DNA of 64,000 bases from Metabacillus indicus LMG 22858. GTDB lineage: Bacteria; Bacillota; Bacilli; Bacillales; Bacillaceae. The notes below the pieces were generated by a model. The model saw only the letters and a program-made list of their open reading frames with translations. It was not told the DNA's origin and ran no database searches. The position numbers and the translations under genes are program-made. Every line of letters begins with the position of its first letter. Positions within the stretch are counted from its first letter, which is position 1. The stretch covers positions 620,001 to 684,000 of the forward strand of contig NZ_JGVU02000002.1 in assembly GCF_000708755.2 (NCBI RefSeq). The letters are read 5' to 3'. Shown here in pieces: positions 2,045 to 29,183 of the stretch.

Positions 2045-2228
2045 CGTAGGCTTAAAGTGCATACGACAGGCAGGTCTCCTGGCTCTGGTTCGTTGCATGC
2101 TGCTGCCTTCCCATTCCATTGCAGAACAGTGGCTTCGTGCAGAATGCTCCCCATTACAGTGGCGCGACCGCACCGGATTTTCACCGGCTTCCCTTTTAAG
2201 CTTCCGCGTATAGCGTCAGCACCCATCG
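2045..2228 (-). promoter_or_regulatory. Cobalamin (B12) riboswitch controlling metE
   Basis: Read on the minus strand, the segment carries the conserved cobalamin-riboswitch blocks in order: GGGAAGCCGGTG with AAAATCCGG, then GCGCCACTGTAATGGGGAG, then the B12 box AGCCAGGAGACCTGCC (plus coordinates about 2067-2084). The terminator at 1943-1974 and metE follow. Known function of the family: adenosyl- or methylcobalamin binding favours termination, so the B12-independent synthase is made only when B12 is scarce. A weak sigma-A promoter (TTGCAA, 17 bp, TATTGT) lies at about 2263-2291. A 78-codon open frame across this stretch is an artefact of the riboswitch. Confidence 0.93.
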
Positions 2229-2311
2229 CTTGTCAACATATTATGAATATTTTTGTGATTGTTTTTAACAATAGCTGATGTTTTTCAATCTTGCAAGACA
2301 TTTCTTATTAT

Positions 2312-23173: not shown

Positions 23174-24526
23174 TTATAACAGCTTCCAAACACCCAATAC
23201 ATCAAGCAATACAAGGAAAATGGCAATTGGCGCCACGTACCTCATAAGCAGGAACCACACATTGAACAGTCCTTTGGATAACGAAGATCCTTTAGAGAGC
23301 TCTTCATAAAGAGCTGATTTTTTCATTTTCAGCGGAACAAATATAGATATAAGCAGGGCTCCCACAGGCATCAGGATGTTACTGACCAGATAATCCGCCG
23401 CATCAAAAATGGATTTGCCGAAAATGCTTACTTCACTCCAGACCCCAAATGATAGGGCAGACGGTATACCTACTGCAAAGATAAGAAGCCCGATTGTCCA
23501 TGACCATTTTGTCCGTTTCTCAGCGTCTCCCTTTGATAACACAGATACAATGATTTCAAGCATAGAAAAAGCCGAAGTTAAGGATGCAAACAGGAAAAGC
23601 AGGAGGAATGCCGCAAAGAATACCATTCCAAATGCCATTTGATTAAATACGGTCGGCAGTACGTTAAAGAGCAGCACCGGACCGGCATCAGGCTTCAGGC
23701 CGAAGGAAAAGACGGCCGGGAAGATCGCAAGCCCTGCAAGAACAACAATAAAGATGTTCATTCCGACAATCGAAAACGCAGATTGAGGCAGATTGGACTC
23801 TTTTGATAAATAAGAGCTGTACGTTACCATAACGGACACACCTACACTTAGGGTGAAAAAGGATTGCCCCAGTGCTGCCAGAATGGTTTCCGACGTTAAT
23901 TTTGAAAAATCAGGCTGAAACAAAAAGCGGACTCCCTCCATCGCACCGTCTAAAGTAAGCGAACGGAAAATCAGTACGATAAACAAAAGAAATAAAACCG
24001 GCATCATAACTTTACTAGTGCGCTCAATTCCTTTTTGGACCCCTTTTGCAACAACCGCAATGGTTATTGCCATGAAGACAAAGTGCGCTCCGACGCTTAG
24101 TACGGGATCAGTGATCGTTTCCCCGAACAGCTGCCCATACTGCTCCTGACTGAGTCCGTTTAAATCTCCTGTCAGTGTTTTTACGAGGTAGAGAATAATC
24201 CATCCTCCAATGACACTATAAAATGACAGCAGAATAAAACAGGTTATCATTCCTAAATAACCGACAGAAAACCATTTTGTTCCCGGCGCGATTGCTTTAT
24301 ATGACTGGATCGCATCTTTCTGAGTGCTTCTTCCGACCGCAAATTCTGCCAGGAGCAATGGCAAGCCAAGCAATAATGTGAAGAGAAGGAATATAAAAAA
24401 GAAGGCTCCCCCTCCGCTGACTCCGGCTATATACGGGAATTTCCATATTGCCCCAAGTCCGATTGCTGATCCTGCTGCAGCTAAAATAAAACCCAGTTTT
24501 GAAGACCACTGCTGTTGTTCTCTCAT
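23174..24526 (-). CDS. Sodium-dependent amino-acid transporter (NSS/SNF family)
   Basis: A 450-residue LeuT-fold symporter. Span 1 carries the family sodium/substrate site [17 protein letters not shown] and is followed by [12 protein letters not shown]; about eleven spans are visible, as in bacterial MhsT-type members. Close bacterial homologues import hydrophobic or aromatic amino acids with Na+. A T-box leader lies immediately upstream and its specifier loop reads as a Phe codon, which suggests phenylalanine uptake. A terminator follows the stop codon. The substrate is inferred from the leader, not from binding-site residues. Confidence 0.92.
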
Positions 24527-24564: not shown

Positions 24565-24815
24565 CGCAAAAAAGCCGCCCCCTGTGTGTAGGGGCGACTG
24601 TTCATCGCGGTACCACCCTAGTTGAGAATACTTCTTCTCCGGCTCTTAAGTCGATATCGGGACAACCCGCTCATTCCTTCCGTCAGGTCGAAACAAAAAC
24701 TCAGGGACCGAAATTCATACGCATTGTGTGTACTGACTTTCACCTAGCGTCAGCTCTCTATAACAGGGACAATGCGATTACTGTGTTTCCCATCAACGTT
24801 ACGCTCCATTAATTT
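24565..24815 (-). promoter_or_regulatory. T-box riboswitch (probable tRNA-Phe sensor) with terminator
   Basis: The minus strand carries the T-box proper AGGGTGGTACCGCG (plus 24606-24619), followed by the terminator GTCGCCCC...GGGGGCGGC and T6 (24568-24600). Stem I is closed by CGCATTGT/ACAATGCG. The opposite internal loop shows AGTA facing GAA, the usual loop-E pair, and the codon after GAA reads TTT (or TTC one base on); both mean Phe. The T-box UGGU matches a tRNA with discriminator A. Uncharged tRNA-Phe should allow transporter expression. Confidence 0.9.
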
Positions 24816-25226: not shown

Positions 25227-25347
25227 GCGATGAGCTGAATTGTGTAAGTCGAAGAACATGCGGAACTTCCGCACACATGATGTGGCATGTGGTTCTTCGC
25301 CTCAATACGCAAGGAGACGACTGGTTTACCAGCGTCTCCTTTTCTAT
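25227..25347 (+). ncRNA. Candidate structured non-coding RNA, about 120 nt
   Basis: A promoter-like element precedes and a strong terminator ends this unit, and no plus-strand gene follows. The RNA can fold into a junction: CGAAGAAC (25250 region) pairs with GTTCTTCG, enclosing GCGG-AACTT-CCGC and CACAT-G-ATGTG hairpins, and ends in the terminator stem GGAGACG/CGTCTCC. There is no ribosome site with an open frame inside. No known RNA family was recognised. It could be a trans-acting small RNA. Confidence 0.5.
25310..25347 (+). terminator. Terminator of the candidate RNA
   Basis: AAGGAGACG and CTGGT pair with ACCAG and CGTCTCCTT across a 2- to 4-nt loop; TTTTCTATTTT follows on the plus strand. 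The minus-strand side lacks a T run, so it mainly serves plus-strand transcription. Confidence 0.85.
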
Positions 25348-26089: not shown

Positions 26090-26126
26090 AAAAAAGACCG
26101 GAGATCAAAGTCTCCGGTCTTATCTT
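26090..26126 (-). terminator. Terminator of yidC2
   Basis: GACCGGAGACTTTGATCTCCGGTC hairpin followed by T6 on the minus strand, 20 nt after the insertase stop codon. Confidence 0.92.
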
Positions 26127-26146: not shown

Positions 26147-26977
26147 TTAAACGGGTGCTTCTGCTTTCCTGTTTCTGCTGCTGTCTGCATGAAACAATTT
26201 TTTCGTCAGGAGAGTCTGCAAAATGACAAACATCCCTCCGATGGTCCAGTAAAGCGGAAGAGCTGCCGGTGCTGTCAGCGAGAACATGCCGATCATGACA
26301 GGCGACAAATAGCTGAACATGGCCATTTGTTTTTTCTGCGCTTCTTCAAGACCGACGAGCGATACTCTTGCCTGAAGAAAATAGATGCCTGCTGCGAGAA
26401 GTGTCAGGACAAGGTTCGGACTGCCGAGGTTAAACCATAAAAAGGAATGCTGGGCAATTTCAGGCGTTCTCTGAATGGCATAATAAAACCCGGTTAAGAA
26501 CGGAAGCTGAATGAGAAGCGGCAGACATCCGCCAAGTGCAGCAAGCGGATTGATCTGGTGCTTCTGATACACTTTCATCGTTTCCTGCTGCAGTTTCGTC
26601 TTTGTTTCTGCATCTTTTGCTTTTTTCATTTTCTCCTGAATAACTGAAAGCTCAGGCTGCGCCTTTGCCATCTTCCCCTTCATGTGCATTTGGTCTTTCG
26701 ACTGTTTAAGGGCAAATGGAAGAAGAACGAACCGGATCATCAACGTTACGAGAATGATTGAAAGCCCGTAGCTTCCCTGAAACCATTCGGCAAACGTTTT
26801 TAAAAGCAGTGAAAACGGATAAACAAAATAGTGATTAAAAAAGCCCGGGGTAACGCTCGTTATTTCCTGAATGCCACCGGTGCCTGCCTGCTGGCAGCCG
26901 CTCAAAAGAATAAGCAGGCCTATTCCAAGCAGTGCAAGGAATACGTTCCGAGAGGTGAATGCAGATTTCTTTTCCAT
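26147..26977 (-). CDS. yidC: Membrane protein insertase YidC2 (YqjG-like)
   Basis: A 276-residue Oxa1/YidC insertase. The signal ends in lipobox LLSGC (Cys28). Five spans follow; the hydrophilic-groove arginine is in LMIRFVLLPF (near residue 82), and NPLAALGGCLPLLIQLPFLTGFY is the family block. Spore-former genomes usually have two copies: YidC1/SpoIIIJ next to rnpA and YidC2/YqjG elsewhere. There is no rnpA or jag here, so this is the YqjG type. In B. subtilis this copy is induced through the arrest peptide MifM, and a MifM-like leader ORF lies upstream here. AAGGAGGA is 6 nt from the ATG and sits in a hairpin. Confidence 0.95.
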   Translation of the reverse strand: MEKKSAFTSRNVFLALLGIGLLILLSGCQQAGTGGIQEITSVTPGFFNHYFVYPFSLLLKTFAEWFQGSYGLSIILVTLMIRFVLLPFALKQSKDQMHMKGKMAKAQPELSVIQEKMKKAKDAETKTKLQQETMKVYQKHQINPLAALGGCLPLLIQLPFLTGFYYAIQRTPEIAQHSFLWFNLGSPNLVLTLLAAGIYFLQARVSLVGLEEAQKKQMAMFSYLSPVMIGMFSLTAPAALPLYWTIGGMFVILQTLLTKKLFHADSSRNRKAEAPV

Positions 26978-27282
26978 GTAGATCCTCCTTGTTTTTCATT
27001 GAGTATGAAAGATTCAAGAAGGAAGCCGGACGGAGTATCATCTCCTGCATCATACCGTCTCATCTGCCTGATGATCCAGACAATGACCGCATTTGTTTCA
27101 TTTTGTCTCCGCTGTGAAATCAGTCTGTCTTTATGCTCATGCCTTACTGCCATTTTCATAGACGGGTGTTTTTTAAAGGACTGATCCAGCAGATAGCCGC
27201 AGGCAAAGATCGCCGCTACAGTAAAGAAAAGGCTGATCAGAGTCAGATACGGTGTAAGTTCGTGTGAAAACTCCATCATCAT
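26920..27282 (-). CDS. MifM-like leader ORF upstream of yidC2
   Basis: A 120-residue frame with AGGAGGTGA a few bases upstream (ATG 27282 preferred; ATG 27291 is only 3 nt from the site). Residues 13-32 form one membrane span, LTLISLFFTVAAIFACGYLL, followed by a basic cytosolic stretch. Near residues 66-82 it reads VIVWIIRQMRRYDAGDD, a Trp/Arg-rich stretch followed by acidic residues, recalling from memory the arrest region of MifM (YqzJ). The frame continues through the yidC2 ribosome site and overlaps the first 58 nt of yidC2. Membrane insertion of the span by YidC1 would relieve arrest. Homology is not proven; the context is the main support. Confidence 0.72.
   Translation of the reverse strand: MMMEFSHELTPYLTLISLFFTVAAIFACGYLLDQSFKKHPSMKMAVRHEHKDRLISQRRQNETNAVIVWIIRQMRRYDAGDDTPSGFLLESFILNEKQGGSTWKRNLHSPLGTYSLHCLE
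26983..27023 (-). promoter_or_regulatory. Hairpin that masks the yidC2 ribosome site
   Basis: In the minus-strand RNA, TCCTTCTTG (27015-27023) pairs with CAAGGAGGA (26983-26991), nine pairs with one G-U, covering the yidC2 Shine-Dalgarno sequence. An inner stem TTTCAT/ATGAAA closes the loop. The 5' arm starts 13 nt after the acidic codon GAT at 27037-27039 of the leader ORF, so a ribosome paused there would open the stem. Confidence 0.8.
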
Positions 27283-27370
27283 GTGCTGCATTCACCTCCT
27301 TTTATTACACTAAGTATAAACCTCATAAATAGAAAAAGAAAGCGGATGTCACTTCCATTGCATGGATGGG

Positions 27371-27896: not shown

Positions 27897-29183
27897 TTAT
27901 TTAGCAAATCCCATAAACTGCTTCAGCATGGAAAGGCCGTATTTGCGGTCTGCACGTTCCTCTTTTTCTTTTTGCTGCTGTACGAACGCAAGAAATTTTT
28001 GTTCTCTCTGTTCAATATACTGTTTGGCTAGCTCACGTTCATACTTGACCTCATCATAGAACATTTCCCGTTCACTGTTTGCAGATTCATGGATTACGTT
28101 CAGTTTATCATGAAGAGATGCATAATGTCCTTCCGCAGCATTCATGTGTGCTTCCTTCATTTCGCCAAGCTTTTCCTTCAATGCGGAAAACTGGCTTTTC
28201 GACATCGTCAGCTGCGTTTTTGCATGTTCGTTTACTTTGTTTTGAAGGCCGGAGAATTGGCCCAACTGCACTTTCGTCTGTTCATCCATTTTTGACTGAA
28301 GTGAAGCATATTGTTCTTTTGCTGCCTGCAGCTGTGTTTTGGCCTGTTCATTAAGCTTAGTGTTCAAAGCAGCAAACTGGCCTTTTACGGCATTGAACTG
28401 AGCTTCCTTCTGTTCGTCAAGCTTTGTCTGAAGCGCTGCAAACTGGCCTTTTGATGTCTGTTGCTGGGATTTTGCCTGATCATTCAATTTGCTCTGGAGT
28501 GCTGTGAAATGGGTTTTGGCCGTTTTCATTTGGGCTTTTGACTGCTCATTCAGCTTATGATGAATCGCCGTAAACTGGTTTTTAGCGGCATTCAGCTGCA
28601 GATCCGTCTGTTCTTCGAGCTTTTGCTGAAGCTCTTCCATCTGCTCTTTAGCGGCACTCAGCTGGGCTTTTGACTGTTCATTCAATCTGTGATGCAGGGC
28701 GGCAAACTGGCCTTTTGACGTTTGAAACTGTGTTTTGGTCTGCTCGCCAAACTCCTGCTTGACCGTTTTCTTCAGCTGTTCGATTAACGACAGCTCCAGC
28801 TGGTCCATTTTCAGCTCAAGTATATTTATGTCCTGTTTTCCTTTTTCTTCAATCAAACTGAAAATCTCTTCAAGCGCCACTTTAATATTTTTCTTTGCAG
28901 AAAGTTCTGCATCCGGATCCAAAACGGCAGCTGAGGCTGCAGCGGCTTCACCTTTTCCGTTCATAGCAAGCATTTGGACAATTGTCTCATGATCGAGCTG
29001 GCTGTCCTTCATATGTTTAATTTTTCTCAGCATTTCAATATTTTCGGGCGAGTACACCCGGGCATTTTTATGATCCCGTTCGATTTCAAGAATGGCTGTG
29101 AACTCTTCTTCCCACATTTTTAAAATGTAGGAGGACTCCCCAAGCATGGAAGCTACCTTTGAAATACTTACCTTTTTAGACAT
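27897..29183 (-). CDS. MerR-type HTH protein with ten 22-residue coiled-coil repeats
   Basis: A 428-residue protein. Residues 1-75 are a MerR-like winged helix (VSISKVASMLGESSYILKMWEEEF, then ARVYSPENIEMLRKIKHMK). A short Ala-rich linker and a helical region (95-148) follow. Residues 149-364 are ten tandem repeats of 22 residues with consensus xKxQxxxxKxQFxALxxKLNEQ; the eighth lacks four residues. A charged helix closes the protein. The plan recalls RacA of B. subtilis (HTH plus coiled coil, chromosome anchoring), but the rod is far longer. It may bind DNA at one end and dimerise or bridge along the rod. No ligand-binding domain is present, so a classical MerR activator role is unlikely. Confidence 0.8.
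   Translation of the reverse strand: MSKKVSISKVASMLGESSYILKMWEEEFTAILEIERDHKNARVYSPENIEMLRKIKHMKDSQLDHETIVQMLAMNGKGEAAAASAAVLDPDAELSAKKNIKVALEEIFSLIEEKGKQDINILELKMDQLELSLIEQLKKTVKQEFGEQTKTQFQTSKGQFAALHHRLNEQSKAQLSAAKEQMEELQQKLEEQTDLQLNAAKNQFTAIHHKLNEQSKAQMKTAKTHFTALQSKLNDQAKSQQQTSKGQFAALQTKLDEQKEAQFNAVKGQFAALNTKLNEQAKTQLQAAKEQYASLQSKMDEQTKVQLGQFSGLQNKVNEHAKTQLTMSKSQFSALKEKLGEMKEAHMNAAEGHYASLHDKLNVIHESANSEREMFYDEVKYERELAKQYIEQREQKFLAFVQQQKEKEERADRKYGLSMLKQFMGFAK
28092..28739 (-). repeat. Ten tandem 66-bp coding repeats
   Basis: These encode residues 149-364 of the MerR-type protein; nine units are 66 bp and one is 54 bp. Each unit encodes two hendecads (22 residues), recurring KGQFAAL and KLNEQ. 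DNA divergence between units suggests an old, selected array rather than recent slippage. Confidence 0.88.

Follow-up and report, generated by a model that had tools for sequence, protein, structure and literature searches.

The sequence analysed here (the window) is a 64,000-nucleotide stretch of Metabacillus indicus LMG 22858 (assembly GCF_000708755.2, contig NZ_JGVU02000002.1, positions 620,001–684,000, forward strand). Its minus strand carries yidC2, preceded by a short leader ORF that runs into it and by a hairpin holding the yidC2 Shine-Dalgarno (SD) sequence. The features, in window coordinates and in order along the minus strand, are as follows.

27295..27303, minus strand: leader SD, AAAAGGAGG (from the sequence; identical in the genus loci shown)
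26920..27291, minus strand: leader ORF, 123 aa from the first ATG, 120 aa if the start is M4 (27282)
27190..27246, minus strand: predicted membrane span, residues 16–34, N-out/C-in by flanking charge
27028..27102, minus strand: predicted arrest region, codons 64–88 with W72, D84, D85 and P87 (pooled pN/pS 0.21, alignments)
27028..27036, minus strand: predicted P-site codons of an arrested ribosome, T86-P87-S88 (suggested by modelled SD exposure from W+14/W+15)
27015..27023, minus strand: 5' arm of the hairpin, TCCTTCTTG, within the leader ORF (folding, 9 pairs)
26994..27010, minus strand: inner 6-bp stem-loop, TTTCAT...ATGAAA (folding)
26983..26991, minus strand: 3' arm of the hairpin, CAAGGAGGA, holding the yidC2 SD AAGGAGG at 26990–26984 (folding)
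26920..26977, minus strand: out-of-frame overlap of the leader ORF and yidC2, 58 nt (sequence comparison of loci)
26147..26977, minus strand: yidC2, membrane insertase of 276 aa, presumed regulated gene (ORF list and family searches)
26094..26121, minus strand: terminator-like stem of 11 pairs after yidC2 (terminator scan; four sites in the region, shuffle mean 1.9)

An earlier note on this DNA had described a 120-codon ORF with a strong ribosome site, one N-terminal membrane span and a Trp/Arg-rich stretch followed by acidic residues, reading through the yidC2 start, and this description is borne out. The length of 120 codons holds from M4; counted from the first ATG, which lies only 3 nt past the SD (27303–27295), it is 123, and as read from the sequence either Met could be the start. 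The span has a mean hydropathy of 2.15, with a net charge of −2 on its N-terminal side and +2 across the next 12 residues. It is followed by W72 and then by D81, D84, D85 and P87; the Trp/Arg-rich and acidic stretch, VIVWIIRQMRRYDAGDD, corresponds to residues 69–85 and ends at 27037. The hairpin spans 27023–26983 and begins, as claimed, 13 nt after D85, its arms forming nine pairs in addition to the inner stem.

A single further YidC gene is present in the genome (4.13 Mb, 22 contigs); it sits between genes that I take to be rnpA-like and jag-like; the rnpA/jag interval is the usual place of SpoIIIJ/YidC1. A promoter scan found no promoter-like site before the leader. The sequence of a terminator-like stem at 27338–27356 (minus strand, TGACATCC.CTTTCTTTTT) is found again in genus loci, immediately 5' of a TATACT box that precedes the leader. 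Rfam, at gathering score, has three matches in the window, all outside the leader/yidC2 locus: a T-box leader at 24587–24805 (minus strand, 120.8 bits), upstream of a presumably transporter-like 450-aa gene at 23174–24526 (minus strand); a BsrF small RNA match at 25227–25336 (plus strand, 86.7 bits), between minus-strand ORFs; and a cobalamin riboswitch at 2052–2241 (minus strand, 116.7 bits). A 428-aa ORF at 27897–29183 (minus strand), with what I take to be a MerR-like start, contains many repeats of the type KLNEQ(S/A)KAQ..AAK.QF.AL.

Distribution of the leader and of the overlapping layout

The earlier note had named a lack of conservation in related genomes as an argument against its reading; both the ORF and the hairpin are conserved there. 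The leader ORF is present in all seven genomes of the genus and in 16 of 80 family genomes (8-row profile, E ≤ 0.01), one of these 16 being a weak, partial match (G022, E = 0.007), and a single-sequence search recovered it from 11 of 60 relatives. The other six genus genomes have versions that are 57–95% identical to the window ORF. Named relatives with the same leader include Metabacillus idriensis DSM 19097, Peribacillus frigoritolerans F-D2 (record title) and Bacillus sp. PAMC26568.

Further loci were gathered from 40 genomes searched with Pfam and from 150 genomes of the order searched for YidC2. They gave 60 upstream regions, 20 from the Pfam matches and 40 among the best-scoring YidC2 matches listed, and because of this selection the 60 loci lean towards YidC2 proteins like that of the window. 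Four were left out: L080 and L081, which have an rnpA-like ORF upstream and look like YidC1, and L082 and L083, with possible leaders. A same-strand leader ORF lies at 54 of the 56 other yidC2 loci, chosen among the matches listed. Within the same listed matches, 41 of these 54 leaders end 9–37 nt before the yidC2 start and 12 overlap it by 37–131 nt; L100 is ambiguous, with an uncertain yidC2 start (one overlap value is 32 nt), and is labelled separate. Locus L089 has a different, multi-span ORF upstream in place of MifM, and L097 only a 41-aa leader fragment with a standard start; neither has a clear MifM, yet both carry the label 'separate' in the tree.

I then mapped the layout on a YidC2 tree of 68 proteins, in which the rows of 40 loci are stop-to-stop frames and may include residues before the start. 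The 23 overlapping rows comprise the 12 fetched ones, the genus loci and four earlier loci. All but one lie on one side of a branch with support 99/99, a side that also holds L089 and the YidC1 outgroup (on a long branch, its place unsure). The remaining row, L066, sits among separate rows, and its overlap arose independently. The overlap label needs three changes on the tree, against a shuffle mean of 19.1. The position of the leader stop inside yidC2 varies among the overlapping loci, and what is conserved is therefore a leader frame that stays open past the yidC2 start. By dinucleotide shuffles, the chance of an open leader frame in 13 lineages, if these were independent, is 6.1e-6, a figure which overstates the case because the lineages share ancestry and the loci were already known to overlap, and which is informative only since it is YidC2 sequence that defines the clade. 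The absence of in-frame overlaps with yidC2 was dropped as evidence, being true by definition (an in-frame leader would be a fusion). Neither a full-text literature search nor the main text of PMC10987492, where the word 'overlap' does not occur, yielded a description of an overlapping mifM, which is not proof of absence.

The SD-masking hairpin

Folds were computed for 39 of 67 loci, arm swaps for 29 and synonymous recodings for 21, all picked by the author; the recodings used the codon usage of ten window ORFs, applied to every species. For the hairpin, masking and co-variation are stronger evidence than free energy. The leader fold is moderately unusual in energy (z −1.91; 9 of 200 shuffles as good), and 254 of 1000 synonymous versions of the window match it in stability. 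Folding of the leader RNA, which the earlier note had proposed as a check, gives a yidC2 SD that is 0.001 unpaired in the native fold, against a mean of 0.25 in recoded sequences, with 5 of 300 recodings as low. SD masking places 14 of the 21 overlapping loci in the top 5% of their recodings, and energy six; those outside by masking are L009, L012, L066, L075, L086, L087 and L088. In the full leader the SD is at most 0.25 unpaired at 35 of the 39 folded loci, comprising all 21 overlapping and 14 of 18 separate ones.

Co-variation of the arms was assessed by swapping them among the 29 loci. Native arms pair at −15.2 kcal/mol vs −11.2 kcal/mol when swapped, the native 5' arm pairs better than the foreign-arm mean in 27 loci, and none of 20,000 permutations equals the native total. 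A candidate outer stem, joining the arrest codons to the earliest codons of yidC2, is suggestive: native pairing beats swapped pairing in 13 overlapping loci (equalled by 212 of 20,000 permutations), with no signal in a control region (19,947 of 20,000) or in 14 separate loci (12,592). It is weak, and is kept out of the claim. The early yidC2 codons at 26956–26965 (minus strand) and in relatives read CTG(T/C)ATTC in 14 of 22 overlapping rows, and may be the partner of the arrest codons in this stem.

Relation to MifM

Among sensors of the YidC insertion pathway, MifM has been studied best, yet its arrest residues are poorly conserved. The leader ORF itself has no match in NCBIfam at E ≤ 1 or among the sequences of solved structures at E ≤ 10, and its sole Pfam match (SHP, E = 0.2) is likely due to chance. 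In the profile comparisons, Bacillus loci carrying the B. subtilis MifM motif stand in for B. subtilis MifM. The earlier note's proposal of a strongly diverged MifM gains support through intermediates: when the genome is searched with a profile built from 18 leader peptides of other genera (three are Bacillus MifM), the window ORF is the top match (E = 1.5e-11; next 0.10), and profile-profile comparison gives probabilities of 97.5 with the genus alignment and 99.2 with a wider alignment, both over nearly the full length. Direct comparison against Bacillus MifM alone gives a weak result, with a probability of 23 across 26 arrest-region columns. The putative homology thus rests on intermediates, helped by the identical gene position.

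Conservation within this group is sparse, Trp being the only invariant column of the 18-leader alignment. Passages of PMC4423224 state that arrest in B. subtilis needs R69, I70, W73, I74, M80, N81 and D86-E87-E88-D89, with E87 placed against U2506. When the sequences are aligned on Trp, three of these ten named residues are identical in the window ORF (W73, I74, D86), which does not match the B. subtilis motif RIxxWIxxxxxMNxxxxDEED, and the position of the ribosome-contacting E87 is Thr. With only three of ten arrest residues identical, the claim is limited to a diverged MifM.

This motif does not enter into the definition of the catalogued family (PMC10987492). That 2024 census identified 572 MifM sequences across 592 Firmicutes genomes, by clustering and a charge filter (PMC10987492). 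The window ORF passes the charge filter of that paper (below −0.3 in a 5-residue window within residues 70–100), with DAGDD at residues 81–85 giving −0.6 by hand. It also has an N-terminal signal and a soluble part of at least 30 residues, as the census demands: 54 residues separate codon 88 from the span, here placed at 16–34 by hydropathy in place of the published predictors. The distance from the end of the span to W+14 is 52 residues in the window, and among the 38 loci whose Trp was scored it is 50–60 in 37; the published median MifM spacer to the arrest site is 54 (PMC10987492). As expected of MifM, the ORF immediately precedes yidC2, and the genome encodes a further YidC, the primary one.

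The window shares with B. subtilis MifM, and with Bacillus loci of its type, the position before yidC2, the single N-terminal span, acidic residues 12–16 past Trp, an SD-masking hairpin and similar spacing (PMC4423224, PMC6037786). There are also differences. Where B. subtilis MifM has DEED, the window leader has DDxP. In addition, B. subtilis MifM has 95 codons and is described as stalling a few codons before its stop, and in five Bacillus-type loci (L070, L072, L074, L077, L078) the leader stops 27–33 nt before yidC2, whereas the window ORF runs 35 codons past codon 88 and overlaps yidC2.

Predicted arrest site and proposed control of yidC2

Taken together, the locus is best read as a diverged MifM, an insertion monitor that would control yidC2 by regulated translation arrest; from comparative sequence evidence I put the probability of this at roughly 0.88. 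Such a system is of a known kind, and what the present analysis would add is an overlapping class tied to one YidC2 clade, together with a predicted arrest site. Arrest, its release by insertion and the control of yidC2 are predictions from this comparison.

Three lines point to a predicted arrest at codons 86–88, namely the end of protein constraint, the codon at which the SD opens and, by inference, the geometry of the acidic residues. The first comes from pN/pS, pooled over 15 pairs of six genus sequences; the pairs are not independent, and the segment borders were set after the alignment had been viewed. Values are 0.21 for codons 1–36, 0.28 for codons 37–63 and 0.21 for codons 64–88, and 1.24 for codons 89–98, where synonymous change is also lower (pS 0.25 vs 0.46–0.69 elsewhere). 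P87 and S88 are invariant within the genus, and the next invariant residue is L92. On these grounds selection on the protein fades at about codon 88, and selection at the nucleotide level seems to take over at the start of the hairpin.

For the second, I modelled SD opening by folding only what remains of the mRNA beyond +15, counted from the P-site codon. In this model the window SD is closed for P-site positions as far as W+13 and begins to open, partially (0.31 at most), at W+14/W+15, in agreement with the end of protein constraint. Opening is 0.26 in L004 and 0.54–0.60 in the other five genus genomes, and in four Bacillus loci it starts at W+15 or W+16. Half-maximal opening falls at W+14 to W+17 in 32 of 38 loci with Trp, the change being small in four of these (L067, L085, L107 and L112, maximum 0.19 or less). 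The exceptions are L066, L075, L076, L092, L093 and L096; the Trp of L076 used in the spacing and opening analyses is probably not homologous. As to the third line, B. subtilis MifM arrests with D89 (equivalent to W+16) to S92 in the P site, according to passages of PMC4423224. Should arrest require an acidic residue two positions ahead of the one in the P site, as with E87 and D89, then D84 or D85 would place the P site at codon 86 or 87.

The constraint also bears on whether any arrest need be invoked. Ribosomes crossing the hairpin could open it for yidC2 by plain translational coupling, without arrest or sensing, and the way in which the leader runs through the hairpin and overlaps yidC2 is indeed like that of coupled genes. 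Coupling needs no amino-acid constraint, however, and therefore the constraint on codons 1–88, and its absence from codons 89–98 of an ORF that extends to codon 123, count against it. So do the Trp that is invariant in the 18 leaders from other genera and the Trp and acidic pair that are invariant in the 8-row alignment, which includes the window. Moreover, the leader stop lies 37–131 nt inside yidC2 in the overlapping loci, so re-initiation at the yidC2 start is not favoured. I consider coupling improbable. Somewhat less probable still is a stable small membrane protein, for example a YidC2 partner, with the hairpin as a separate translation control: the conserved span and charged C-terminal part would suit it, but codons 89–98 are not constrained, and the nearly fixed distance from span to motif (37 of 38 loci) is as for a force-sensitive arrest. 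A chance ORF over a chance hairpin, as the modest fold z-score might suggest, is hardly credible in view of the conservation, constraint and co-variation.

Under regulated arrest, the switch would work as follows. When YidC activity is sufficient, the N-terminal span would insert N-out/C-in and pull the nascent chain, and a ribosome with a pulled chain would not be held near codons 86–88. It would translate on, out of frame, across the hairpin and past the yidC2 start; the hairpin would then re-form behind it and hide the SD of yidC2. If insertion falls short, D84-D85-x-P87 near the peptidyl-transferase centre and W72 further down the tunnel would hold the ribosome with its P site at about codons 86–88, and its leading edge would keep the 5' arm of the hairpin open, allowing yidC2 to be translated.

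The DDxP motif belongs to a sub-clade of 12 tree rows (support 97/94). It occurs at W+12 to W+15 in 11 of these rows, namely the seven of the genus and L010, L011, L012 and L084; the twelfth, L086, has DDED. Off the tree, L164 has DDGP and L167 DDEH. L096, outside the sub-clade, also has Pro at W+15, followed by an acidic residue. MifM is stated to arrest without a proline at the A or P site in passages of PMC7897499, and by hypothesis a conserved Pro entering the A site would be a changed arrest chemistry. The same source describes a contribution of proline to arrest in SecM, ApdA and ApdP, in SecM at the A site (PMC7897499), and the window sub-clade, with Pro mostly at W+15, beside the predicted P site, resembles them in this. 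The gene downstream of these peptides is secA or secDF, whereas that of the window leader is a yidC; unlike them, the window leader has acidic residues before the Pro, and its sequence lacks a RAPP/RAGP motif. CliM of Clostridia and ApcA of actinobacteria are likewise leaders before a yidC gene, and CliM is described with an N-terminal span and an SD-masking stem-loop, as in the window (PMC13183943). Their reported arrest motifs, KYxIW for CliM (earlier named uC_KYxIW) and RAPG for ApcA, are unlike the window leader.

Two features look like those of a variant. One is an ORF that continues across the hairpin and beyond the yidC2 start; the other is that most of the sub-clade has replaced DEED by DDxP, with a predicted arrest near codons 86–88, where modelled SD exposure begins. 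A fuller proposal, speculative and with the odds somewhat against it, is that the YidC2 clade is under an overlapping MifM with two locks, the SD hairpin and a start codon swept by unarrested leader ribosomes. In the sub-clade the arrest motif would have changed from DEED to DDxP, with Pro entering the A site as in a MifM/SecM hybrid, and the hairpin edge would have shifted to match.

These loci amount to a natural series in which changes of the peptide motif seem to be accompanied by changes of the RNA switch, including a clade whose leader is read through the start codon of its own target. The series makes testable how an arrest peptide may drift without loss of function, and whether leader traffic may act as a second layer of repression.
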